DNA from: a virus
DNA: 21,743 bases
Virus record (IMG/VR): IMGVR_UViG_3300037427_002846
Span: 1-21,743 of that record
Reading direction: 5' to 3' (one strand)
Under the pieces are notes generated by a model that saw only the letters and a list, made by a program, of their open reading frames with translations, had not been told where the DNA came from and searched no databases. A program made the position numbers and the translations under genes. How positions within the stretch are numbered: position 1 is the stretch's first letter; every line of letters begins with the position of its first letter. Of this stretch, positions 1,095-21,058 are shown piece by piece.

Positions 1095-4000
1095 TCAAGG
1101 AGTTCTATAATCCTTATATTTAAGTGATTCAGATCTTCTTACTACTGTAGAAGTAGAAATTCCACCTGTTCCACCTAAAGTATATGCGTTATAAGCAATA
1201 CTTTCAGATCTTGAGGTTAAATTAATTTTACCCCAACTATATGCTCCAAAATAATTACCAGTTTGGATTCCAGCACCACTAAAGGATGGCCATTGTCCAC
1301 TCCAAGTATTGAAGTTGGTAACTTTCACAAACACCCTATTAAGATGAGTTGTGCCTATTCCAACACCCGTAGTTCCAACTCCAGTAGGAGATTGAACTAT
1401 TTCAAAATTGTTAACTTCATAAACGTTATTTAGGAACTGAGTTCCTACTCCAATAACAGCACCACCTGTGTCCACAGAATTTATTGATGTAGTTGCACTA
1501 CCAACTGTAGAGTTGTTAACAACGAAGAAGTCACCTGTAGATATTCCACTAATAGTAACTGCAGTTCCAGCAATACTAGAATCCCTTAGATCTGATGTGA
1601 GAGGAATATGTAAATCAAATATCAACTGATAATTGGTTGAACCAGCTCCTATTGTAGTAGTACCAAATCCAACTATAATACCAGAGTCACCTTGATAGTA
1701 GTCAACCTTATTTTCCTCTTCAGATATTGTTGGAGGACTTATAAGAACTGCTGGTGGATTAGATGATGTATATCCAGCACCAACACTTGTAATTGCAATA
1801 CCAGTTATAGTACCAGCAGAACCAATTATAGGAGTTCCAAAAGCAGTAGTAGATGTTGAACCAATACCCACTTCCTTTCCACCTAATGATGTTGTAGCAA
1901 AACTAACCATAGCAGTACTATAACCAACACCACCAGTTGAAATAGCAACAGAAGAAATTGTTCCAAGACCAGATACTATTGCAGTACCAGCAGCACCAAT
2001 CTTATCCTCTTGAGAAGCAAACTTAACTTTCTTTTGGAAAGTAAAATCACTGTCTACTAATAATTCAGGAAGTTGATTAACTTCATCCTGTGGGTCAAAG
2101 TATGGTCTTGCATTTTCAACATAGATGACTGTTGATCCTATTCCAACGGATTTGATAATAGGTGAATAAGGATTGATAACAGGTTCATAGAGTTCTCTAT
2201 CTTTACCTACACCTTTTTCATTAATAATCTTATCTTCAGTTTGTCTACACCAATTAATTGGTCTTTCTAAAGATGAATCACTACTATTACCTGGACCGTA
2301 ATATGGTGGAGTAGAAACACGATCTGTAGAATCTACACTAATAGGAACTCTAGCAACTTCTTGCAACCAATTATCTTGAGATATTAAACGTCCAATAGTT
2401 AAGTCATCACCTGGTTTGACAGTCTCTATAATCTTTCTTTCAACAACGTCTTGACCACCAGTTCCCTTATAAAAAATAATTTCAATTGTATCACCTATCT
2501 TAGGTGCTTCAGTAAATGTGATTACACTACCACCAGGGAATTTGTATCCTTTACCAGGAACTTGAGGGATGTTATTAACAAATACTAAAAGTACATCTTG
2601 AACATCAATCTTCGATCCTTTCTTAGCAACAATTGAAATAGAGGCATTATTAAGTGTCAATTCAAAATTAGTTTTACTTCCATCAATATATCTTTCAATA
2701 TTATCAAGAACTTCCAATTGACCAACAGACCATCCAGTAAACTCATCACTAAAGATTCTTTCAATATCAACTACAAACTCTGTGAAAGTTTTGCTTGGAT
2801 CAGTTGGAATACCTGTAGTACCACCAATAGGAACAGTTAGTTTCTCAAGGTTAGCATATCCACTACCAGTATTTTGAATAGTGAAACTAATAACACTAGA
2901 ACCTTGACCAACAACCACATCGATTGTAGCATTTGTTCCAATTCCAGCAGATGTATCACTATATTCTAAAGGAATATTACTATAAGATAATGGATCATCA
3001 AAGACTACTTTATTAAATCCATTTACCACACCACCTCTAGCATATAGATGATTTCTAGTAGATATTCCAGTTTGAGTTTCAAATGTCTTACTATTAACAA
3101 CACGTAAGATTTCACTTCCATTTGCAGCAACATCAAACTTACTATCTGAATTGTTATTCAATCTAGGAGCTAAGATTGCAGATTGAACGGAACCAAATCC
3201 AACATAGAAAGTAGGAACGGTGGAAACACCAATATTACATTCAAAGGTTGTTGTTCCTACACCAACAGCACTAACTGTTGTTCCTGTATAGTAAGGATCA
3301 GGTTTTCTAGGATATCTGTGGACAGTTGCATAACTATCTCTTGAACATCTAAAGTATAGAGATTCAGTTTTTATTCCAATACTTTGTCCTGTAAGGAGAC
3401 TATGACCAGCACCAACACTTACTGTTAATATTCCAACAGAAGCATTATATACAGCAGTAGAAATACTATAATTAGCAGTCTTAGATGTACCAACATTAAT
3501 AGTAATGGTATTAGCAGTTTTGGAATCAATATTAATAGCAGTACTAAATCCTGGATCAGTATATCTTGGATAAGTATGAATTGTTGCATAATCATCCATT
3601 TCACATCTAAACTTCAAACTATCTTGCTTTAACCTTACACTAGTATCTGCAGACAATCCATGAGAAGGAATAGTAAGAACTAAGTTTCCATTATCAGCAT
3701 TATAAGTAGCATCTGTAACGTTATGAGTTGCTGTTGCAGAAGTTCCAACATAAACCGTAATAGTATTTTCTGTATATCCTGTAATTGTAGTAGTAACTCC
3801 TGCAATAGGATCTGTTGAACGAGGATATGACTTGTTAGTTGTATAACTATCCATCCCACAAGTGAATACGATAGATCCCGTAGCAATTCCAATAGTATCA
3901 CTATCGGAAAGACCATGAGAAGGGATAGTAAGAACTAAGTTTCCAGTTGTAGCATTATATGTTGCATCAGTAGCAGTTGTAGTACCTATACCAGTTACGG

Positions 4001-7000
4001 AAACACTTCCAACACCAGCACTCACAAATGAATGTGTATATTCACCACCACTAATAACAGCACCATTTACTGAACCCACATACCTGTGAGGATATGAACC
4101 ACCAACAACTACAGCACCTGAAGTAGCAGATACAAACTGATGAGTGAATTGATCACTATTAGCAGCATATCCTACATCAATTGCGATGTCTCCGTCATTA
4201 TGAGTAAGTCCATCTGCAAGTGCTCTTACAAATGTATGAACACCCGTATTAGTGGAAGGTGCTACAGGAAGAACATTAACTCTAAACGTATTTGTAGTTA
4301 CATTAGAAACTGTTATCCATTGTCCAGCAATAGTATCCGATTCTCTAGGATAAGTATGCAAACTTTCATGAGAATCTTTATCACAAGTAAAGGTTAGAGA
4401 ATTAAGTGCAAATTTAACTTTATCTCCATTAGAGAACCCATGACTAGCAGATGTGCAAGTCATAATACCTGTATTGGGATTATATACTGCATCTGATAGT
4501 GTCTTCTTAGCACCATCCTTAGTAATCTTAACTGCAGTATGATATGCGGAATCTTGACCTCTTGGATAGTAATGAGTAGATGCTCCACCATCTAAACCAC
4601 ATGTAAATGCTAGTCCAGTAAAGATAACAACACTCTTCTGACCACTAGTTGATAATCCATGCCCAACAGCAGTCGTAACTGTCATAATACCAGAAACATT
4701 ATCATAGACTGCAGTGTGAATACCAAGTCTAGGTGCATAATCACAAGTGAATGCAATACCAGAAAGTCTTACTTCATCACCTACTGATAATCCATGATCA
4801 GTTTGTGTTGTTATTGTAGAAATACCAGTAACTGAACTATATCCAACATTTGCAACTTTTCTAGGTGAGTAGAAAAGATGATCCATATTGGTAACAGCAA
4901 TTCCTGTAATATTACCAGTAGTAATTTGTGCTGTTCCTATTCCAATTACATTTGTACCAACACGACTTAAAGTTTGTATTCCAACATTAACTGTTTGGAT
5001 ACCTGCTCTATAACCAGAACCAGTATTACCAATACTAATAGATTTAATAGTACCACCAGCAGAAACTGTAACAGTACCACCTGCTGCAACTAAAGGTTGG
5101 TATCCAAATCCTTCACTAGAACCAACAGAAACTATTATTCCACCTCTAGGTAAAGTTCCTACATTTGCATCAGTAGTAGAACTTCCAGTTCCTGTAAAGG
5201 AAATTGTTGTAACACCAACAGTAGCATCTTCTGTAATAGAATATTCGTTAGTAATACCTTGCCCATCTATATTTGGAGTTTGGAAGACATCATTAATAAG
5301 AATAATAGCATTATCAGTAACAATTCCTGAAACATTAGACCCATCTGATTTTAATATAAATTCTGATTCTTGTCCTGTAAATTGGGAAGAAATGCTATCA
5401 AAAATATAATTTCTCCAATATGGTTCATTTGCAGTATCAGGAACACCAGAACGCATAAATGTTCTTCCTTCAAAACTAGATCCAGTTGCAATTCCTACCC
5501 AATCTCTAGAATCTGGTGGATTGGTAGACGTGCTTAAAGGAACATTACCATAAGGTGCTTCCACAAAGTTTATTGTATTATCAACAATATTATAATTACC
5601 ACCAACTTTGGTAATTAAAGATCCTGTACCATATCCTGCCAAAGTAGTTCCTGCCCAAGATCTACTAACTCTAATAAGATTATCATTTCCAGATACACCT
5701 ATAGAATCAATTCTAATTATTTCATTACCAATTTTAATTAAGTCACCACCAAAGAATGATGTTATTCCAGCAAATTCAATAAGATCATCAGTAGTAAATA
5801 CTTGACCTGCTGTCTGGGTGGTTACTGCAGTAGATACAATAGGAGATTGAAGAATATTATCTAAAGATACAAGAGCTTTTTTATTCTGATTAACGGCATT
5901 AAAACAGTGAGAAGTTCCAATACCTACACTTGTGATATCAACAACCTCTGGGACGGTCTGAAGTGCCTTAGAGACACTCTCTGCAAGCTTAATGGTTTCA
6001 TCATCAACCTTAACTGCATATACTTTACTTGGTAATAAAGTAGTTGTACCAACTCCAGTAAATCCATCAGTAGAAGCAACTCCAATTGCCATTGTATATC
6101 CAGTACCAGGATTTGTATAAACAAGTTCTTCACCAGTAACAAAGAAATGGTTTGGTAAATTAATAGTATTATTAGTAACATCCACTATGTCACTATCCCT
6201 ACCATTAAATGGTTTTCTAAAAATTGGATCACCTTTATGTGATAATCCAAATCCTTTTAATACCGCACTCTCAGTTCCTGCATATTCCCCAAATCCACTT
6301 TCAATAGTTCCATTATTAAAGTCTATCGTATCTTTAGTATCATCCTGTATTCTTATAGCATTCATATACACATTAACTTGTGCATTAATACTTGCTACAG
6401 GAGTAAAGAGTAAAGAAACAGTTCCTGCAGATGATACTTTAGATCCAAAAGTACCAAGTCCACTTGGAGAAACACCAGATGCAACATTACCAAATTCTAC
6501 ATCAAATGTTTCTGTTGATGTCTCCGATATGTAATCAGTAATTGCAGCAAATTCAAACATAGAATAAACTTGATTGGTTGCATCAGTAACTTGAATAACT
6601 CCATAACCTGCTTCATATTCAACTGGCCATGAACCAATAGTATTAATTCCAGGTGAAGAAGAAGAAGTAATTTCGGTTGTTCTTGATTCTATCCTTGCAT
6701 GTTTGAGATCAACTGTACCAATACCAGTATAGGCAGAATCTGCGATACCAACAAGAATTGTATTAATAACACCAGTTGTTCCTATACCAACATTTGAATT
6801 GGCAATAAAATCAACCTTGAGTTCTGTCCCATCAATATAACCACGATAAGTTCCTAAACCACCAATTGATTCTGGAGTATTAACTGTAGTTAATCTTCCA
6901 TATTCCATTATATCAACTTCATCACCATTATGAATAATATTCAACTGATTATATTCATGTTCTGTACCACTAATATCAGGATTGATATTAATAATAACTT

Positions 7001-10000
7001 TTGCAGATCTATAAGTGCTTGCAATACCAACAATCGTTGTTGTTCCTATTCCAGTTCCTATTGTAACACTTTCAGAATCAACTATTGATCTACCAATAAC
7101 AGTACTACCAGTGCTTAATAAATTATCATCTAGATTGTATGAAAGAGTAGCAACAAAATAATCATTAACAGAATATTTGATAGGATAGAAATTTAATTGT
7201 CCTTCACTACCAGAAAGAGCAAAATCAAAATCTCCTTGATCATAAACTGATTCAACTCTTCCATATTGGTTAATATATCCTCGAATATCATCATGAATAA
7301 GGTCAACAATCATCAATTGTCTTTGACCAGTAAATCTCTTATCTCTTACAAATGTAATATACTTTAACGCTCTTCTCTCCGACAAAGTAAATCTATTAAC
7401 AGTATTAAACCTAGTCGCTCTTGGATTGCTATTAAATGTACCACTAAAATCATCAATAGAAACGACTCTATTTCCAACTGATTCAGAATAATCTTCTAGA
7501 ATTCTACTTGTGAAAGTTATTTCTGTAGAGAAAGCATCATCTCCACTAATATCTAAAGCATTTTCAGTTACTAGGTCAAAATCATATACACAATTTAAAT
7601 TACCAATACCATAAAGATCATTTACTACAGAAACATCAGATAATTCTGTTGATAATCCAACTCTAGTGGAAGCCGTTGACTCTAATTGATAATTAGCAAA
7701 TTTCTTAAATCCTAATGTATGATTTAAAGGGGAAACAGATTCATTCCATGTATTATAGTCAATTTTAGAACTTAAAGAATATGAAAGATTTTGATAATAA
7801 TCACTATCCTGAATTCTTTGTATATCTGCGTTAAGGAATCCAGAATCAGTTCCCCATCCCTTTTCAACTCTTGAAGTTGCATCTAATTTAATATAAGAAT
7901 CAAAAGTTTTGATAGATGAAGCAATACCTTGAGTTCCTGAAGATAATCCTTCTAGAACATCATTAATAAAAAATCCTTTAGTACTAGTAACTCTTAAAAT
8001 GCCTGTTAATCCATTCCAACTTTGAACCGTTCCTCTAGTACTACTAATAGAACCAGTAACTACTTCATTCTTAGAAAACTCATTAGGTGTTAATACAACA
8101 TCAAATGTAGGCATAAATTTCTGAGGAACTATCCTTCCAGAAGAATTAACAAAATCAAATGATCCTGCTGATAACCCAGGTGCTAATCCAGTAAAATAAT
8201 TAGATAGATTATATGTAATAGTACCAATTCCTCCATAATTTTGATCAACTGCTGTTATTTCAAAAAGTTTATAATCATAATCTTTAGAATTATATCCCCT
8301 TGCAGTTGTACCTATTCCTACACCTACACCCTCTATGAATACTTTATCCCCAACAGCAATTGGGAAAGTATCGGCAGTGCTAAATCCAACAGATAACTGT
8401 ATTGTTACATCATAGTTTTCTGTATTAAATCCAACAGTTGCGATTCCAATACCATTACTATTTTTATCTGTAATAATAGTAGGTGCTGCATTACTAATAC
8501 CTTTAGTATTCTTTAAAATTTCTACCTTTGGATTTCCTAAAGTATATTTTAAATCAAGATCAAGAATTGGTTTTTCAGTTTTTCCATCTAAAAGAATCAA
8601 ATCTGGTGATGAAATATAACCTCTACCAAAAGAAGTTATTCCAATTGATTCAACAGACATTAAAGCATCTATCTTAATAATTTGAGGTAGAGAAGCATCA
8701 GGTTTTACTGTAATATCTGATGCAAAATCATATCCAATATCTTTAACTTTTACTTTTCTAATATTTCCAACTGAAGTACTCTTTGGTTCAATAATAGCAC
8801 CATCACCAACTTCACTATTAATTGTAGAAATACCAGGAAGACTATAATAATTTCTACCAGGATTGGTTATCTCAAAATCTCCAATTGCACCATAGGCAGT
8901 TGGACTATCAGTTTCATATGATACAAGTGAAGTAGTTCCATAAGAAAGTCTTTCTGGAGATTCTTTTAAAGTATATGAGAACTGATTAGTTGCACCTATT
9001 GTTATTGTCTGTTTACCACTATAATCACTATCAACAAGTTGTACTTCATTTCCAGATAAAACATCAGCATCAACTTTTATTTCTTTTTTAACAAGTGGTA
9101 ATGTGCTTTCAAAAATAGGATCTAAACTATAATATAAAATTTCTGGAATATCGTTAGTAACAGATAATTTTACTTTTGCATCAGTAGATACTCCTGCAGC
9201 TCCATTTCTAGTAACATTAAAGGATGTAGATTGTAGAGATGTTTCCCACCGTTTTGTTAAATTTTCATCAGTATAAAAATTCAAAACAAATGCTGGATAA
9301 TTTGTAGATTGTACAGCATAAGACAAAGAAGAATCGGATAAGTTAAATTCAACTAAAGAGTTTTTATATACTTTTAATGGTGGATTTATTGGATTAATTA
9401 ATCCCCCATCACCAGTGCTAGTGATACCAACCACATTTGGTTTTGATTCTTTTGAGTCAAAACCAGTTGCAGCTAATTTAAATGTATTACTATCAACCTT
9501 TACAATATAATAAATTCCATTATCATCTAAACCACCAGGAGAAGCTGATGCTACTCCTACAGTATGAATAATCTTATCTCCTGTATCATACCCATGATCA
9601 TTAACTGTAATCGCATTAGTTGTAGTATTAACTCCAGATGAGGTATATGATTTTGGATCAATTACCATTCTCCTATTATAATCATTATACTTTACAGTAA
9701 CTGTTGTTGTAAGACCCGAAACAACATTCATGTAAACATTCTCATAATTTAATAGACCATGAGTTTCACCAGTAGAAACTGTTGCACGAGTTCTACGCAT
9801 TTCTCCAGTAATTACATCATAATTAGTCTTAAAGCTATGATAAACACCAGTACCAACTCCAGAGAAGAATACTGTTGTACTACCCCTCTGTGTGCTTGCA
9901 ATACCTACAAAAGTACCTGTACTACCTAAACCTACCTTAACAGTAGATACTCCTACAAGATCATTTGTAATAACTCCAGCATAAAGTGTTTGACCATCTG

Positions 10001-13000
10001 TTAATGTAGATATACCTGTATCAACAGCATCTGATCCATCCCATCTAATATTAAGACCTTCACCTTGATTAGGAGAATATGTTAACTTATCACCAGTTTT
10101 TAATCCATGTTGTGGAATATAAATTGCCTTTGTTTGAATAAATTTTTGAGTTAATCCAATTCCAGGATTACTAAATGCAATTGTAGTTCCAATACCAACT
10201 CCAGATCTTGTACCTAAACCAACTGAATCTACAGGATTAAAATAAATCTGCTGATTAACTCTATATTCATAATCAGAAGTAAAACCAGAATTAACAGTAA
10301 GTCTTCTTGGTTTTTCAAGAATTTCTGAAGTTACAGTATGAGAAACTCCTGTAACTCCATTAGCAGCTCTTAAAACCCTAATTCTTGAAAGAAGAGGTTC
10401 TACATTCAATAGTTTTAATGTTTCTGTTCCAATTCCAAGAATATCATTAGATTGAAGTTTTGATAAATCACCACGAACACTAATATGAGTTACTATTCCT
10501 GTAGCACCATCAGTTCCGATAGCAACAGCAGTAGTTCCTACTCCAGTTACACTAAGTTTTGTAGAGGTAATTCCAGCATTATAAACTCCTCCAATTTCAG
10601 AAGAAGTTGTAGATAATCCAGAAATTTTAATAATATCTCTATTAATCCAATAATGAGGTTCTGCAGAAACAAGACTATAGATTCCTTTTTGGTCTGAAGG
10701 ATATATTTCTACATTTGTTATACTACTAGTGGCAGCACTTACACTACTTACAGATTTACCAAGAAGTCTTGAAACTTTAGCAGCTGCATCATATCCTCTA
10801 GTACCCTCATCATTAAATATTACTTTATCTCCAATTCGATATTTGTTACCACCAGTTTCAATTCCAATACTTTCTAAAACACCTGGTTTAGTTCCCAAAA
10901 CCTCTATGGTTTGATCTAATTTATTAGGTATTGGAAGATAAGGATAATATACAGTATCATCATGAATTAAATTATAAGGGGTTGTATTTCTACACCAGTT
11001 ATACTCACTAATATCATCTAAGTGATAATTATTTTGATTTGAAGAAGATAAAAGGTTAAAATCGTTTGGAGTTGAATAATAATTTTTACCCACCAAATAA
11101 GGAAAAACTGGTAACTTATAAGTATTAAATTGTCCACCTTGTTCAGCACCAGAATCATCAATTGTTGCAAAATAAGCATAAGTACCACTTGGGAATTGTG
11201 GAGTTACACAAAATCTTCCATTATTCTCATCCAGAACAGTTTCATCGTTTACTGCCTTATATGTAAAATCGTTAGTAAAGAATCCAGAAGGGAAAATACT
11301 TAATGGTGGTCTATTTTCTTTAATTGAAGCTTCTTCAACATACCCAGATTTCATCTGAGATACAGTTCCACCTTCGTTCTTAACATATCCATAAGGTCCA
11401 TATATTGGATTACCATCATATGCCCATCCAATAATTGGAGAATGATTATCTGATGGAACTTCTTGCCCATTAACTTTTCTTAAATCTGGTTCACCATATA
11501 AAGATTTACCTTCTTGATTAGTAGCAAAAACAGTTTGTCTTAACTTTCTAGGTGCATACAAATGATTATATTGCAATCCAAAATTACCATCCTTTATGAT
11601 TCCATCATCATCACTAATTTGTTGAGTTTGATAATATTTTTCAAATAAATTAACACTCCATTTTTGAATATTTGAACGAACTTTACAATCTATTCCAGAG
11701 TTAATAACATCAATAGAAGTATTTTCCCTAGTATATCCACCTCCCTCTTGAATTACATTAACACTATCTAAAACATAATTAATAGTCGTTCCTATACCAA
11801 CTGATGATGCATTTCCATTAAGATCAACTATCTTCAATACAGGTGTTGCAACACAACCTACACCATCTCCATTAATTTGTAAGTTTGGGGGAGAATTATA
11901 ATAAGTACCTTTATTTTCTACAATAACTTCAATAATTTTACCATCTACACTTACAACAGGAGTAAGTTGAGCATCAGATCCAGATAATAAAGTTACTTCT
12001 GGTTCTCTATTAAAATTAATAATTTCAGACGCACCATACCCAACACCATTATTTGATAAATGAATAGATGTAATCTCACCTCTGAATAGAGGTTGAACTT
12101 TAAGTTCAAAAGTGTCAGATCCTACAGAATTTATACCAACGTCTCCAGTAATACTTAAACTAATATCTTGATAATTGAAAACATGAGTTCCAACTCCAAT
12201 TGAAGAAAGAGGTCTATGCTGGTTTGTCTTATAATAAAAATCACTAGCAGTAGTTCCTACCCCAACACTTGAAAGTTTGAAATTATTATTATCTACCTTA
12301 GTTACATAAAAATCAGTAGCAGTTGTAAGTCCTGCTATTGGAGTTCCATCACATGTATATGTGACAATTTCTCCAGATTTATAATCATGATTTTCAATTT
12401 TTATAGAATTTGAAGAAGTGTCTATACCTGAAGATACAGCAGTTCTTTTTTTATTTTGATACCCACTTCCACCTGAGATTATATTAATCGATTCAACTAT
12501 TGATTTTTTATCAAAAGATTTTATAAAATGTTTTCCTAATCCCCTAGATGTTAATGTAATTGTATTAATACCTGCAAGAACACCTGCTTCATCTTTATGA
12601 AGTCTTATAGTCGTTCCACCAGTTCCAACAACAGCAGCATAGTAAGTTGAACTTGTGGTAAGTCCACCAACAACTTCTTGATTATCTGTAACATATAAAA
12701 CCTGTTCTGCATTTCTAAATTTATGATAAGTCGTAAATCCAATTGTAGAAGGCAAACTACCAGTTGTTCCCAGACCCACTCTTGGAGAATCAGCATCAAA
12801 TGGAACAGAATGTTCCATTAATTCCATATTTACAGAAACACGAGCACCTGATCCATTACCACCTGTTATTTTTAATGTTGGTGGTGCTTGGTAATCAAAT
12901 CCTGGATCAATAATTCTAATATCCCTTAAAGATCCAGATACAGCAGCATATCCCGTAGCACCTGTTCCAACAGAATCTTTAATATGTAAAAATGGTGGAT

Positions 13001-15320
13001 TAATAATATCATACCCACTTCCACCAGAAAGAACATCTATATTTTTCAATTCTCCATAATGAACTTGATCAAAAGATTTGTAGTTTAATATTTCTACACC
13101 ATTAACCAATATACCAGTATGACCAGGAGTAGTTTCGTATACAGTTCCTGTATTTTCAATCGGACATACCTGTCTTAATATTTTTTGCGATTCTAAAGTT
13201 TTATTATTAAATTTAAATGGAGATATTTTGTTATCAGTTACAATACCAGTTCTTGTGTCATCATTATCAACATTAACAAATTTATCATTATAAAGATCGG
13301 AACCACTTTTTGCAAATTTAAGTGTTGTTCCATTTACTCTTTTTACAAAGTAAAGACCTTCATCCATTATAGATGATTTAACTACAAAATTTTCTATAGA
13401 AGTCCCACTGGTAGGATCTACATATGCATCATTAATTATTTGTGGTGTATAATAAATTGAATCACCAGTATAGAATCCATGATCATAGATAGGTACTCCA
13501 GATGGAGTTTTTGTAGCACTTGTTATAATTTCATATTCATCACCACTAAAACTTCCACTAAAGACAATTTTACCATCACTAACACCTAATGACTGAGATC
13601 CGTAGGTTGGAATAGAATTAGAAGCTATTAATAATTTGTCTGTTTTTTTATCTTTATATACGTTTTGTATATTTGTAGAATTAACAGATGCTTCAGGGAA
13701 ATTTATAGCATTTGTTTTTAAAATTTGCCTTTCTATCGTATATTTTAAATTTGTATCGACTTCACCCTGACCTTTAATAACAAAAGATCTTGAAGAAGTT
13801 AATTGCGTTATATCAGATACTGGTAAATTTCTACCATCACTACCAACCAAAATAGCAACAGATTTATCCCCAACCTTAAAATCATGATCAGTAGTTAGGG
13901 TAATTTCATAGGTAAAATCAGAATCATCTTTAAGATCAATACTATCAATCTTATATACAGCAGCTACGTTGTAAAACCACTCATCCAATTTAAATCCAGT
14001 ATCCCCAATACCTAAAGTTTTTATTTTTATAATGTCTCCATCTGTATAAAGACAATTATCACTAGAATACTCTAAATCATCAATAACTGATGTGATTCTT
14101 ACTTCAATTGTATCATCAGGATCTACTACAGATTTTCCATATGCAAAAGTATTAATCCCTATTGTAGATCCACTTAATATAGTTTTACCAATTCCACTCA
14201 ATCCAAAAAATTGAGTTAAATTTTTAGATGTATATGAACTAACACCTGTTGTATTATCAATATATGTAAAATGTAATTCTCCAGTACTTGCAAAACCAAC
14301 TGTTGAATCTACATCTACAAAAGTAATACCTGCACCAATTTCTCCAATTACTCTTGTTCTAGGTGGAGTAATAAAAGTTCCATATGTAGAACCTTCTACT
14401 CTAGAATCTCTATTATATCCAGCATCTAAACTTAACTTATAAAATGTAGTTCCAGCACTAACATTTATAGATTCAACATGAGTTATAGGAGCATATGCTT
14501 TATCAATATTATTATTTTTATCCGTATTTTGATATAAAGTGGATAACTCAAGATTTGTTGGATCACCAGAAATTGGTTCTACAACAAAATCTCTTGTTAT
14601 TTTATAATTTGCATTAGATGGTGTAAAAAGAAATTCAGAAGGTCTTATAATTTTTACATTTTCATTATATAAAGCTTTAAATAGAATTTCAAAACCTCTA
14701 TCAGTACCTTTACTTAAATAAAAGTCTTTTGACTGTTTTATAAAAATATTTTGATCTAAATTGGAAGATAATTTTTTCCCTTCAAGTCCAGGTGTAAGTT
14801 GATGTTTAGACTTAAGTAAAAACTCTTTAAGAAAAAGAGAACTTAAGTTTTGTATAGAATCTCCTTTATTATGTTCTGCTGCACTTGAAGTTTCAAATAC
14901 TAATTCATCAAGATGAGTAGGATCTTGATAAGATGTAACTCCAACAAATCCCCTAACACATCCTGTAAATGCAAAAGTAGTTATTCCAGTATATGTAATA
15001 ATTTCATCGTTAATTTTTAATAATCCATAAGAATCTGGAAAACCCAGAGTTCCTGTTGGATTATTTTTCATATCAACTTGAATTGTTTGATTGCTAACTC
15101 CTATAGAAGCACCCAATCCAATATATTCAGTAAGACCGACTTGTTCATCAATCTTTGTATATGCATCAATATTTTGAACCAAATCTATTGGTCCACCTTT
15201 ATACTCTTGCCCCTGATAATATGTTTTTAAAAAATCAACAACTAGTGGATATTCATCTATGACATATCGAGGAAGTTGATTCTGAACAATATTATTAAAC
15301 TGGATTTTTTTTGTAGACAT
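1095..15320 (-). CDS. Giant baseplate/tail structural protein at the gp7 position (4741 aa)
   Basis: A single uninterrupted frame of 4741 codons lies between gp6 and gp8, where T4 has gene 7 (wedge protein, 1032 aa). The first ~250 residues (YPLVVDFLKTYYQG near residue 25, then QSKDFYLSKGTDRGFEILF and a FTPSNANYKITRDFVVEPISG segment) look like the conserved start of cyanomyovirus gp7-type proteins. Residues ~1293-1387 form a YHYH-like domain (GWAYDGNPIYGPYGY, then NNGR and TYAYFATID). Glycine-rich GxGY...PP segments and VGIGTT strings recur along the chain. HG-x-TGD...VKVDxxTFKLA modules occur near residues 611-672, 976-1021, 1906-1953 and 3054-3116. Six cysteine-containing repeats occupy ~3490-4035. 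No signal peptide or membrane segment is evident. Start ATG 15318-15320 is 18 nt after the gp6 stop and has no clear Shine-Dalgarno site. Virion role is well supported; gp7 equivalence rests on position and the N-terminus. A composite wedge/fibre protein is possible. Confidence 0.88.
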   Translation of the reverse strand: MSTKKIQFNNIVQNQLPRYVIDEYPLVVDFLKTYYQGQEYKGGPIDLVQNIDAYTKIDEQVGLTEYIGLGASIGVSNQTIQVDMKNNPTGTLGFPDSYGLLKINDEIITYTGITTFAFTGCVRGFVGVTSYQDPTHLDELVFETSSAAEHNKGDSIQNLSSLFLKEFLLKSKHQLTPGLEGKKLSSNLDQNIFIKQSKDFYLSKGTDRGFEILFKALYNENVKIIRPSEFLFTPSNANYKITRDFVVEPISGDPTNLELSTLYQNTDKNNNIDKAYAPITHVESINVSAGTTFYKLSLDAGYNRDSRVEGSTYGTFITPPRTRVIGEIGAGITFVDVDSTVGFASTGELHFTYIDNTTGVSSYTSKNLTQFFGLSGIGKTILSGSTIGINTFAYGKSVVDPDDTIEVRITSVIDDLEYSSDNCLYTDGDIIKIKTLGIGDTGFKLDEWFYNVAAVYKIDSIDLKDDSDFTYEITLTTDHDFKVGDKSVAILVGSDGRNLPVSDITQLTSSRSFVIKGQGEVDTNLKYTIERQILKTNAINFPEASVNSTNIQNVYKDKKTDKLLIASNSIPTYGSQSLGVSDGKIVFSGSFSGDEYEIITSATKTPSGVPIYDHGFYTGDSIYYTPQIINDAYVDPTSGTSIENFVVKSSIMDEGLYFVKRVNGTTLKFAKSGSDLYNDKFVNVDNDDTRTGIVTDNKISPFKFNNKTLESQKILRQVCPIENTGTVYETTPGHTGILVNGVEILNYKSFDQVHYGELKNIDVLSGGSGYDIINPPFLHIKDSVGTGATGYAAVSGSLRDIRIIDPGFDYQAPPTLKITGGNGSGARVSVNMELMEHSVPFDADSPRVGLGTTGSLPSTIGFTTYHKFRNAEQVLYVTDNQEVVGGLTTSSTYYAAVVGTGGTTIRLHKDEAGVLAGINTITLTSRGLGKHFIKSFDKKSIVESINIISGGSGYQNKKRTAVSSGIDTSSNSIKIENHDYKSGEIVTYTCDGTPIAGLTTATDFYVTKVDNNNFKLSSVGVGTTASDFYYKTNQHRPLSSIGVGTHVFNYQDISLSITGDVGINSVGSDTFELKVQPLFRGEITSIHLSNNGVGYGASEIINFNREPEVTLLSGSDAQLTPVVSVDGKIIEVIVENKGTYYNSPPNLQINGDGVGCVATPVLKIVDLNGNASSVGIGTTINYVLDSVNVIQEGGGYTRENTSIDVINSGIDCKVRSNIQKWSVNLFEKYYQTQQISDDDGIIKDGNFGLQYNHLYAPRKLRQTVFATNQEGKSLYGEPDLRKVNGQEVPSDNHSPIIGWAYDGNPIYGPYGYVKNEGGTVSQMKSGYVEEASIKENRPPLSIFPSGFFTNDFTYKAVNDETVLDENNGRFCVTPQFPSGTYAYFATIDDSGAEQGGQFNTYKLPVFPYLVGKNYYSTPNDFNLLSSSNQNNYHLDDISEYNWCRNTTPYNLIHDDTVYYPYLPIPNKLDQTIEVLGTKPGVLESIGIETGGNKYRIGDKVIFNDEGTRGYDAAAKVSRLLGKSVSSVSAATSSITNVEIYPSDQKGIYSLVSAEPHYWINRDIIKISGLSTTSSEIGGVYNAGITSTKLSVTGVGTTAVAIGTDGATGIVTHISVRGDLSKLQSNDILGIGTETLKLLNVEPLLSRIRVLRAANGVTGVSHTVTSEILEKPRRLTVNSGFTSDYEYRVNQQIYFNPVDSVGLGTRSGVGIGTTIAFSNPGIGLTQKFIQTKAIYIPQHGLKTGDKLTYSPNQGEGLNIRWDGSDAVDTGISTLTDGQTLYAGVITNDLVGVSTVKVGLGSTGTFVGIASTQRGSTTVFFSGVGTGVYHSFKTNYDVITGEMRRTRATVSTGETHGLLNYENVYMNVVSGLTTTVTVKYNDYNRRMVIDPKSYTSSGVNTTTNAITVNDHGYDTGDKIIHTVGVASASPGGLDDNGIYYIVKVDSNTFKLAATGFDSKESKPNVVGITSTGDGGLINPINPPLKVYKNSLVEFNLSDSSLSYAVQSTNYPAFVLNFYTDENLTKRWETSLQSTSFNVTRNGAAGVSTDAKVKLSVTNDIPEILYYSLDPIFESTLPLVKKEIKVDADVLSGNEVQLVDSDYSGKQTITIGATNQFSYTLKESPERLSYGTTSLVSYETDSPTAYGAIGDFEITNPGRNYYSLPGISTINSEVGDGAIIEPKSTSVGNIRKVKVKDIGYDFASDITVKPDASLPQIIKIDALMSVESIGITSFGRGYISSPDLILLDGKTEKPILDLDLKYTLGNPKVEILKNTKGISNAAPTIITDKNSNGIGIATVGFNTENYDVTIQLSVGFSTADTFPIAVGDKVFIEGVGVGIGTTARGYNSKDYDYKLFEITAVDQNYGGIGTITYNLSNYFTGLAPGLSAGSFDFVNSSGRIVPQKFMPTFDVVLTPNEFSKNEVVTGSISSTRGTVQSWNGLTGILRVTSTKGFFINDVLEGLSSGTQGIASSIKTFDSYIKLDATSRVEKGWGTDSGFLNADIQRIQDSDYYQNLSYSLSSKIDYNTWNESVSPLNHTLGFKKFANYQLESTASTRVGLSTELSDVSVVNDLYGIGNLNCVYDFDLVTENALDISGDDAFSTEITFTSRILEDYSESVGNRVVSIDDFSGTFNSNPRATRFNTVNRFTLSERRALKYITFVRDKRFTGQRQLMIVDLIHDDIRGYINQYGRVESVYDQGDFDFALSGSEGQLNFYPIKYSVNDYFVATLSYNLDDNLLSTGSTVIGRSIVDSESVTIGTGIGTTTIVGIASTYRSAKVIININPDISGTEHEYNQLNIIHNGDEVDIMEYGRLTTVNTPESIGGLGTYRGYIDGTELKVDFIANSNVGIGTTGVINTILVGIADSAYTGIGTVDLKHARIESRTTEITSSSSPGINTIGSWPVEYEAGYGVIQVTDATNQVYSMFEFAAITDYISETSTETFDVEFGNVASGVSPSGLGTFGSKVSSAGTVSLLFTPVASINAQVNVYMNAIRIQDDTKDTIDFNNGTIESGFGEYAGTESAVLKGFGLSHKGDPIFRKPFNGRDSDIVDVTNNTINLPNHFFVTGEELVYTNPGTGYTMAIGVASTDGFTGVGTTTLLPSKVYAVKVDDETIKLAESVSKALQTVPEVVDITSVGIGTSHCFNAVNQNKKALVSLDNILQSPIVSTAVTTQTAGQVFTTDDLIEFAGITSFFGGDLIKIGNEIIRIDSIGVSGNDNLIRVSRSWAGTTLAGYGTGSLITKVGGNYNIVDNTINFVEAPYGNVPLSTSTNPPDSRDWVGIATGSSFEGRTFMRSGVPDTANEPYWRNYIFDSISSQFTGQESEFILKSDGSNVSGIVTDNAIILINDVFQTPNIDGQGITNEYSITEDATVGVTTISFTGTGSSTTDANVGTLPRGGIIVSVGSSEGFGYQPLVAAGGTVTVSAGGTIKSISIGNTGSGYRAGIQTVNVGIQTLSRVGTNVIGIGTAQITTGNITGIAVTNMDHLFYSPRKVANVGYSSVTGISTITTQTDHGLSVGDEVRLSGIAFTCDYAPRLGIHTAVYDNVSGIMTVTTAVGHGLSTSGQKSVVIFTGLAFTCGLDGGASTHYYPRGQDSAYHTAVKITKDGAKKTLSDAVYNPNTGIMTCTSASHGFSNGDKVKFALNSLTFTCDKDSHESLHTYPRESDTIAGQWITVSNVTTNTFRVNVLPVAPSTNTGVHTFVRALADGLTHNDGDIAIDVGYAANSDQFTHQFVSATSGAVVVGGSYPHRYVGSVNGAVISGGEYTHSFVSAGVGSVSVTGIGTTTATDATYNATTGNLVLTIPSHGLSDSDTIGIATGSIVFTCGMDSYTTNKSYPRSTDPIAGVTTTITGYTENTITVYVGTSATATHNVTDATYNADNGNLVLTIPSHGLSADTSVRLKQDSLKFRCEMDDYATIHTYPRYTDPGFSTAINIDSKTANTITINVGTSKTANYSISTAVYNASVGILTVSVGAGHSLLTGQSIGIKTESLYFRCSRDSYATVHRYPRKPDPYYTGTTVSAVGVGTTTFECNIGVSTVPTFYVGFGSVQSAILAPRLNNNSDSKFDVAANGSEILRVVNSKTFETQTGISTRNHLYARGGVVNGFNKVVFDDPLSYSNIPLEYSDTSAGIGTNATIDVVVGQGSSVISFTIQNTGSGYANLEKLTVPIGGTTGIPTDPSKTFTEFVVDIERIFSDEFTGWSVGQLEVLDNIERYIDGSKTNFELTLNNASISIVAKKGSKIDVQDVLLVFVNNIPQVPGKGYKFPGGSVITFTEAPKIGDTIEIIFYKGTGGQDVVERKIIETVKPGDDLTIGRLISQDNWLQEVARVPISVDSTDRVSTPPYYGPGNSSDSSLERPINWCRQTEDKIINEKGVGKDRELYEPVINPYSPIIKSVGIGSTVIYVENARPYFDPQDEVNQLPELLVDSDFTFQKKVKFASQEDKIGAAGTAIVSGLGTISSVAISTGGVGYSTAMVSFATTSLGGKEVGIGSTSTTAFGTPIIGSAGTITGIAITSVGAGYTSSNPPAVLISPPTISEEENKVDYYQGDSGIIVGFGTTTIGAGSTNYQLIFDLHIPLTSDLRDSSIAGTAVTISGISTGDFFVVNNSTVGSATTSINSVDTGGAVIGVGTQFLNNVYEVNNFEIVQSPTGVGTTGVGIGTTHLNRVFVKVTNFNTWSGQWPSFSGAGIQTGNYFGAYSWGKINLTSRSESIAYNAYTLGGTGGISTSTVVRRSESLKYKDYRTP
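3220..4860 (-). repeat. Block of six cysteine-containing protein repeats within the giant gene
   Basis: Six units share an order of motifs: a YN..TG strand pair, a SHGL..GD-like turn, F(T/R)C and, in most units, a (H)xYPRxxD segment. The cysteines are at residues 3526, 3574, 3646, 3821, 3906 and 3992. The last three units are spaced 85-86 residues apart, so they are true tandem copies of about 255 bp. At DNA level, 3658-3690 and 3913-3945 match over 33 bases with one mismatch, exactly 255 bp apart, which indicates a recent duplication or gene conversion. Function of the repeat fold is not known to me. Confidence 0.8.
4000..4150 (-). repeat. Short in-frame repeats (about 17 residues) in the giant gene
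   Basis: Three successive segments near residues 3724-3774 resemble each other: FTHQFVSATSGAVVVGG, then SYPHRYVGSVNGAVISGG, then EYTHSFVSAGVGSVSV. Each has aromatic-x-His-x-aromatic-Val followed by a small-residue turn and a Gly-rich linker. They sit between the third and fourth cysteine repeat units and account for the unusually wide gap between those units. A beta-strand repeat is likely; nothing else can be said from sequence. Confidence 0.6.
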
Positions 15321-20272: not shown

Positions 20273-20452
20273 TCAGTTATAATAATCCAACGGCAAATCT
20301 ACATCCTCTATGTAACACTTACAGTCCTCAATCTCTTGCATATCTAATACTTTTCTCCAGTCAATCTCTCTTGGATTAAAGTCATCAAGCACATCCAATT
20401 CTAGTGTTATTCTATACTTAGTCTTCTGCCCGTAGTAGTTAGAAACTGTCAT
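20273..20452 (-). CDS. Small protein of unknown function (59 aa)
   Basis: The frame runs from ATG 20450-20452 to TGA 20273-20275. The protein reads MTVSNYYGQKTKYRITLELDV at its start, followed by FNPREIDWRKVLDMQEIEDCKCYIEDVDLP. The alternation of an amphipathic strand (KYRITLELDV) and a helix suggests a small folded domain, and similar short proteins occur in cyanophages. The start is 30 nt downstream of a perfect sigma70-type -10. The leader is unusual in being C-rich (CCCCCAACCC) with no Shine-Dalgarno site. Function unknown. Confidence 0.7.
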   Translation of the reverse strand: MTVSNYYGQKTKYRITLELDVLDDFNPREIDWRKVLDMQEIEDCKCYIEDVDLPLDYYN

Positions 20453-20482
20453 GGGATTAGAGGGTTGGGGGTGATACTTACT

Positions 20483-20511
20483 ATTATAATATGACTGTGG
20501 AAAACTGTCAA
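20483..20511 (-). promoter_or_regulatory. Sigma70-type promoter with a TTTTCCACA site in its spacer
   Basis: TTGACA (20506-20511), a 17-base spacer and TATAAT (20483-20488) on the minus strand give full consensus. The spacer contains TTTTCCACA (20496-20504), so a protein bound there would block or remodel the promoter. It drives the 59-aa and 41-aa genes. Confidence 0.87.
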
Positions 20512-20585
20512 GAATTACAGTATTATTATGTATAAATCCTTATATTTTAAAAAACGTAATACCCTGACAAAATATAAACGAGGGA

Positions 20586-20615
20586 TTGACAATTAAACCG
20601 AGTTCGTGTTATACT
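20586..20615 (+). promoter_or_regulatory. Plus-strand sigma70-type promoter facing against all the genes
   Basis: TTGACA (20586-20591), an 18-base spacer and TATACT (20610-20615) lie on the plus strand. No plus-strand gene follows. The transcript would pass through the TTCCACA array and the inverted repeat and then run antisense to the right-hand operon. The -35 is perfect and the -10 matches five of six bases. Confidence 0.65.
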
Positions 20616-20647
20616 CTGCTCGGTAAGATCACTATAAAATCAACACT

Positions 20648-20721
20648 TTATTCACATATATTCCACACTATCTAACAACAATTCCACACGTATTCCACCT
20701 ATTAACTATTACTTTTCCACA
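20648..20721 (+). repeat. Five phased DnaA-box-like motifs
   Basis: Nine-base motifs start at 20648 (TTATTCACA), 20659 (TATTCCACA), 20680 (AATTCCACA), 20691 (TATTCCACC) and 20713 (TTTTCCACA), all on the plus strand. The spacings are 11, 21, 11 and 22 bp, close to one or two helical turns, so bound proteins would lie on one face of the DNA. The last copy is the perfect TTTTCCACA; the others differ by one to three bases. Confidence 0.65.
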
Positions 20722-20807
20722 CACTTGTTGAAAAGAGATACATTAAGCACCCCTATTTATTAGACCATTTATAATTCATTTTAAAGCATATTACACTCGA
20801 TAAGTAA

Positions 20808-20846
20808 TAGTTTTCCACAGAAATGCCCCCTAGTTGTGGAAAACTA
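20808..20846. repeat. 12-bp perfect inverted repeat made of two TTTTCCACA sites
   Basis: TAGTTTTCCACA (20808-20819) and TGTGGAAAACTA (20835-20846) are exact reverse complements separated by 15 bases. As DNA this is an inverted pair of DnaA-box-like sites. As RNA it would be a hairpin with a 12-bp stem. It lies about 60 bp beyond the stop of the right-hand operon, but has no proper T-run for a classic terminator. Confidence 0.75.
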
Positions 20847-20881
20847 AGAGGCACAGTCTGTATTTGATTGTTGTTAATTAG

Positions 20882-20890
20882 TGCTATAAT
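20882..20890 (+). promoter_or_regulatory. Possible extended -10 promoter on the plus strand
   Basis: TGCTATAAT is a perfect -10 with the TGn extension. A TTGATT 15 bases upstream is only a weak and closely spaced -35. The plus-strand product would be antisense to the right-hand operon. AT-rich background makes chance occurrence possible. Confidence 0.3.
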
Positions 20891-20905
20891 ACACCTTGTA
20901 GAGTG

Positions 20906-21058
20906 TTAATAATTATGCAAAGTCCTATAGGGTTTATAACAGTATCTCTCCTGTTGCTGAGTATCAATTAGAGACGATAATCCTTGAGTTTCGTTTCTAT
21001 CTTCAGTTGATAATCTTGCCCTTAGTTGTTGATACTCTTCAGTTGTAAGTGTTGTCAT
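20906..21058 (-). CDS. Small protein of unknown function (50 aa)
   Basis: The frame runs from ATG 21056-21058 to TAA 20906-20908. The protein begins MTTLTTEEYQQLRARLSTEDRN and ends in RYCYKPYRTLHNY. The N-terminal half is likely helical, and the tail is aromatic and basic. It follows the 49-aa membrane protein gene by 6 nt and is the last gene of the right-hand cluster. No Shine-Dalgarno site is clear. I do not recognise a family. An 18-codon hydrophobic plus-strand frame overlaps it and is taken as a shadow. Confidence 0.65.
   Translation of the reverse strand: MTTLTTEEYQQLRARLSTEDRNETQGLSSLIDTQQQERYCYKPYRTLHNY

Follow-up and report, generated by a model that had tools for sequence, protein, structure and literature searches.

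A gene-free gap of a T4-like cyanophage genome fragment holds an array of sites that match the cyanobacterial DnaA box and are kept, in motif and in spacing, in related phages, and we propose that in part of the T4-like cyanophages this region is a conserved candidate platform to which the initiator DnaA of the host would bind. Among the functions such a platform might have, a DnaA-assisted origin opened by transcription ranks first with a probability of about 0.38, ahead of a promoter switch and, behind that, a decoy mimicking oriC.

The window, i.e., the whole IMG/VR fragment of 21.7 kb (21,743 nucleotides) that was analysed, belongs to a T4-like cyanophage and encodes gp25, gp6 and a large baseplate gene, all on the minus strand, its gp6 sharing 73% identity with gp6 of Synechococcus phage Bellamy. 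The open reading frame next after gp6 is a single one of 4741 codons (1095-15320); the annotations of Bellamy and S-SM2 give the gene in this position as baseplate wedge initiator. The 59-aa protein encoded at the left flank of the gap corresponds to phrog_12516 (function unknown) and no functional assignment was found for it. The features of the gap and its flanks are:

20273-20452, minus strand: 59-aa ORF, left flank of the gap
20453-20905: gene-free gap of 453 bp with the whole array; no conserved ORF
20475-20575: the 100 bp with the lowest stability in the gap (0.6th percentile), flanked by the two promoters
20483-20511, minus strand: promoter of the 59-aa gene, TTGACA-17-TATAAT, 12/12 consensus
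20496-20504, minus strand: perfect box TTTTCCACA within the spacer of that promoter, also at -50/-52 in close relatives
20586-20615, plus strand: divergent promoter, TTGACA-18-TATACT with extended -10, 11/12 consensus, pointing into the box array
20598-20623: CCGAG...CTCGG, an inverted repeat that encloses the -10 of the divergent promoter, found by reading the sequence
20648-20656, plus strand: TTATTCACA, a degenerate box that opens the phased array
20659-20667, plus strand: box TATTCCACA, 1 mismatch, 11 bp further
20680-20688, plus strand: box AATTCCACA, 2 mismatches, 21 bp further
20691-20699, plus strand: box TATTCCACC, 2 mismatches, 11 bp further
20713-20721, plus strand: perfect box TTTTCCACA, 22 bp further, end of the phased array
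20754-20761, minus strand: AATAAATA, a conserved column block in the 23-locus alignment
20811-20819, plus strand: perfect box, arm 1 of a convergent inverted pair with a 15-bp spacer, kept in relatives
20823-20854, minus strand: terminator-like hairpin GTGCCTCTTAGTT-ttccac-AACTAGGGGGCAT after the 50-aa ORF (-21.9 kcal/mol, z -4.4)
20835-20843, minus strand: perfect box, arm 2 of the convergent inverted pair
20906-21058, minus strand: 50-aa ORF, right flank of the gap

An earlier note on this DNA had described five phased same-strand motifs that end in a perfect 9-mer and lie in a region without genes. All of this holds: the gap 20453-20905 is free of genes, the five sites start at 20648, 20659, 20680, 20691 and 20713 with spacings of 11, 21, 11 and 22 bp, and the last of them, at 20713, is a perfect TTTTCCACA, the other four carrying one to two mismatches. 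Overlooked there were three further perfect boxes, at 20496(-), 20811(+) and 20835(-), the last two of which form the convergent inverted pair. The gap thereby holds four perfect TTTTCCACA 9-mers (20496(-), 20713(+), 20811(+) and 20835(-)) and the other 21 kb of the record none. Dinucleotide shuffles of the gap contain 0.0077 perfect boxes on average and 0 of 20,000 reach four, while in 0.025% of the shuffles a stretch of 75 bp holds five such same-strand sites; shuffled sequence, which the earlier note had named as a check, does not match the motif density. The DnaA-box array is confirmed and is a stronger observation than was first stated.

The 9-mer TTTTCCACA, named in the earlier note as the cyanobacterial DnaA box, is indeed the published one (PMC4674748, PMC3480399), and 45 Prochlorococcus loci show an enrichment of it beside dnaN. 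Upstream of dnaN in these loci, TTTCCACA is more than 100-fold commoner than in the sequence downstream, ATTTCCACA and TTTTCCACA being its main forms, and the boxes adjoin CTACTACTACTA, a run resembling a DnaA-trio; the dnaN query was used only for locating the loci, the Prochlorococcus matches being 72-87% identical to it over its full length. Two further Cyanobiaceae genomes have boxes beside dnaN at spacings of 22-12-21 and 22-12. The phage region is like the cyanobacterial oriC beside dnaN in its TTTTCCACA boxes, several host-consensus copies of which lie in one non-coding region, and in their same-strand spacing of about one and two turns, whereas it has neither a DnaA-trio nor dnaN and carries in addition a convergent pair with a spacer of 14-16 bp. 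Judged from the sequence, it is very probable that host DnaA binds the phage array.

Relatives were located through two anchors that are independent of the motif, gp6 and the 59-aa protein. Viral contigs found by gp6 that extend far enough upstream often carry the cluster. The 59-aa protein gave 60 loci with at least 500 bp upstream, in 32 of which the 700 bp preceding the 59-aa gene hold two or more exact boxes; elsewhere in those 60 loci there is only one exact box. No box at all is present in 27 of the 60. Among the matches listed, the inverted pair is situated 2.1-8.6 kb upstream of gp25, on its sense side, in 62 of 62 contigs with detectable gp25 or gp6, and as the gp6 genes of pair-bearing contigs diverge to about 31-33% identity, the arrangement is old. 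When 23 loci are aligned the box positions stand out as distinct conserved blocks, and the array that is degenerate in the fragment occurs in perfect form in two relatives, with spacings of 22, 22, 11 and 21 (L141) and of 22, 11 and 21 (L096). The check in related phages that the earlier note had asked for came out positive, both motif and spacing being kept. The conserved block AATAAATA at 20754-20761 on the minus strand resembles, we presume, T4-type late promoters.

The box-less loci (L338-L374), nearly half of those with a 59-aa gene, have a coding gene close by on the upstream side of the 59-aa gene wherever they were read directly. Within one gene neighbourhood the module has been lost from such loci, or was gained later by the others.

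The same-strand spacings of exact boxes in 77 non-redundant clusters fall at 11-12 bp (27 cases), 21-23 bp (9), 31-33 bp (9) and 42-44 bp (8), a helical phasing with a Rayleigh p of ~5e-14 for all spacings and of 1e-5 once the dominant 11-12 bp class is left out, both values coming from spacings that are pooled within clusters and not fully independent. The convergent box pair with a 14-16 bp spacer is a second signature: convergent pairs peak at 23-25 bp start-to-start, inside the allowed 17-31 bp, and again at 34-36 bp, beyond the scanned range, while 0 of 201 host-family genomes contain a convergent pair with a 14-16 bp spacer. As this geometry is not seen in host genomes, and DnaA binding to the array is a prediction, it is conceivable that the 9-mer is the site of a different protein, encoded by the phage or by the host, instead of DnaA; we regard this as improbable, since the 9-mer matches the host DnaA box exactly and the same-strand boxes are spaced as in the host oriC.

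The inverted pair could fold as RNA, and in the fragment the terminator-like hairpin at 20823-20854, which has no long T tail, overlaps it, so that a hairpin or terminator, or else a set of chance repeats, without any role of DnaA has to be weighed. The likelihood of this is very slight: chance is excluded by the shuffles, the phased boxes on one strand are unable to form a hairpin, and at least 128 inverted pairs keep their 9-mers. The scan for these pairs demanded exact 9-mers, yet loci located through a protein anchor have intact 9-mers as well. We rejected the inverted pair as structured RNA, the flanks in at least 128 pairs pairing no more than base composition predicts. A terminator scan of the region called no terminator, and an Rfam search returned nothing credible, its one weak miRNA match lying outside the region.

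The promoters of the gap had been described as opposed; two are indeed present, but they are divergent (20511-20483 on the minus strand and 20586-20615 on the plus strand). In most relatives the promoter of the 59-aa gene is kept at a distance of ~59 bp upstream, and in the fragment a box fills its spacer. The predicted transcript of the divergent promoter has no ORF, and its -10 and leader TAAGATCACTA are kept in most relatives, including box-less Bellamy. As Bellamy has both promoters and no boxes, promoters and boxes are separable. The AT-rich tract of the earlier note exists as well (20475-20575) but is not unusual for these genomes, in which it has a median rank of 35% among 900-bp windows. 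The repeat at 20598-20623 changes on both arms in relatives (GCGAG...CTCGC) and the leader TAAGATCACTA after it is nearly unchanged; it looks like an operator or an RNA 5' hairpin.

These promoters bear on the possibility of a DnaA-responsive switch, in which DnaA at the boxes would repress or activate the divergent early promoters according to the replication state of the host, with no initiation taking place here. In the fragment and its close relatives the spacer of a perfect promoter contains one box, a transcript from the divergent promoter would cover the array within its first ~230 bp, both promoters are conserved, and DnaA is a known transcription factor (PMC8203912). Nevertheless Bellamy keeps both promoters without boxes, the nearest box of several relatives is 86-136 bp upstream of the 59-aa gene or farther, and four to eight boxes plus a fixed inverted pair exceed the needs of a simple operator, and we hold the switch to be a serious rival of the origin but a less likely reading.

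As to the DnaA-assisted origin, we propose that host DnaA would oligomerise on the phased boxes as on the host oriC and that the bound protein would bend and destabilise the region. Transcription from the divergent promoters would then give the opening, and possibly a primer RNA, replacing the role that the DnaA-trio plays in oriC, whereupon the phage's own helicase loader and helicase would take over, the array serving as an auxiliary origin from which phage DNA would be copied in the first rounds. An origin is favoured because the array is oriC-like, the divergent promoters could open the DNA and the phage has no initiator of its own, no DnaA C-terminal domain having been found in 8 cluster-bearing phage genomes. 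It is further favoured because place and spacing are conserved, the box is that of the host, boxes are strongly enriched, and some of the GC-richer contigs, whose box pair has an 18-bp spacer, have primase-like genes within ~3 kb. According to a review a single theta origin was predicted for Syn9, its location not being given there (PMC2984593), and this favours an origin too.

The same reading is disfavoured by the DnaA-trio, a run of at least four units of which lies beside 0 of 520 phage boxes as compared to 44 of 94 host boxes, by the ordinary AT tract, by the position of T4 oriF elsewhere and by the eight of 14 isolates without a cluster. It is also disfavoured by the detrended cumulative GC skew of Syn9 and S-ShM2, which shows a maximum and not a minimum ~8 kb from the cluster, a comparison confounded by gene orientation. 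That the region is a phage origin, as the earlier note had suggested, is not established, as DnaA-trio, unusual AT tract, skew minimum and strict oriF synteny were not found.

To our knowledge T4 does not use host DnaA, and we know of no detailed account of how replication starts in T4-like cyanophages. The T4 origin oriF, or ori(uvsY), is close in setting, belonging to a T4-like phage and having a promoter beside its element near gene 25; it differs in lying downstream of gene 25 and in combining the promoter with an A+T-rich unwinding element and an R-loop (PMC3016281), and the review describing it makes no mention of DnaA (PMC3016281). In oriF the A+T-rich element follows the promoter; the phage region has promoters too, and its least stable stretch, an unexceptional one, falls between the two. 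A synteny with oriF in the order helicase, cluster, gp25 was considered and dropped: oriF, at 115321, is just downstream of gene 25, whereas the phage cluster is 2.1-8.6 kb upstream of gp25, and although a UvsW-family helicase precedes the cluster in isolates, a better UvsW match is found at 106-122 kb.

That mobile replicons can carry host DnaA boxes is generally known, P1 oriR and like plasmid and phage origins having them together with iterons of their own initiator. The phage array shares with these origins the host boxes on a mobile replicon and differs from them in that no phage initiator site was recognised in the fragment.

Box and array spacing as in the host oriC, yet no DnaA-trio, would also be expected of an oriC mimic without an opening element, the phage copies of which would withdraw host DnaA and stop new rounds of host replication. 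Such a decoy fits with the convergent pair being found in 0 of 201 host-family genomes and with the E. coli titration locus datA, which likewise lies apart from the host origin as a small cluster of DnaA boxes, some of them consensus and some nearly so (PMC5835720). A DnaA-box cluster outside oriC is what the phage region presents as well; datA differs in being chromosomal, in its role in DnaA-ATP hydrolysis and in its IHF site (PMC5835720). As a decoy requires neither a fixed genomic place nor divergent promoters, and the boxes are few when one genome infects, we consider it unlikely, though a rival to be taken seriously.

Exact-box clusters at one genomic place are present in the isolates Syn9, S-ShM2, S-PM2, Syn1, P-TIM68 and S-SM2; in Syn9 and S-ShM2 the cluster region is the densest box site of the genome, and some boxes lie inside annotated small ORFs. 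Eight of 14 T4-like cyanophage isolates (Bellamy, S-RSM4, P-HM1, P-SSM2, P-SSM4, S-SSM7, SynMITS9220M01 and S-CRM01) have no cluster, and none upstream of gp25 even with one mismatch allowed, so the cluster cannot serve as origin throughout the group. In T4, KVP40 and the pelagiphage HTVC008M there are scattered copies only, with no cluster. The array had been called unusual for T4-like phages, which stands for T4 and KVP40, neither of which has a cluster. In S-PM2 (L379) the tRNA genes annotated in the stretch 9400-11350, over the box cluster, were not found by ARAGORN, and the tRNA coordinates of this record may be shifted.

The conserved cluster suggests that lytic phages recruit or capture DnaA, the initiator of host chromosome replication. 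In open-access full texts we found no report of DnaA boxes in T4-like cyanophages. If the array is functional, phage replication or host shutdown would depend on the host initiator, and a conserved, host-matched array in many abundant marine phages is a concrete sequence for testing. As Syn9 and S-ShM2 carry the array and Bellamy does not, the comparison is possible in existing laboratory systems.

Variants of the module occur in several contigs. L093, L095 and L126 carry the module in duplicate, as two box clusters separated by ~1 kb in which the convergent spacing is 13/23 bp and the divergent one 19 bp, and in the AT-rich L147, L168, L183 and L204 a convergent box pair surrounds a conserved, nearly palindromic 20-bp spacer of the type CAGTCATCTATATTAGACTG. 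In contigs with a GC content of 0.56-0.60 (L121, L139 and L156, also L127, L146 and L155) a convergent TTTTCCACA pair has an 18-bp spacer, and in the three of them that were scanned (L121, L139 and L156) a primase-like gene lies within ~3 kb of the pair; these GC-richer contigs form a second phage group with host-type DnaA-box pairs, apparently an unrelated one.
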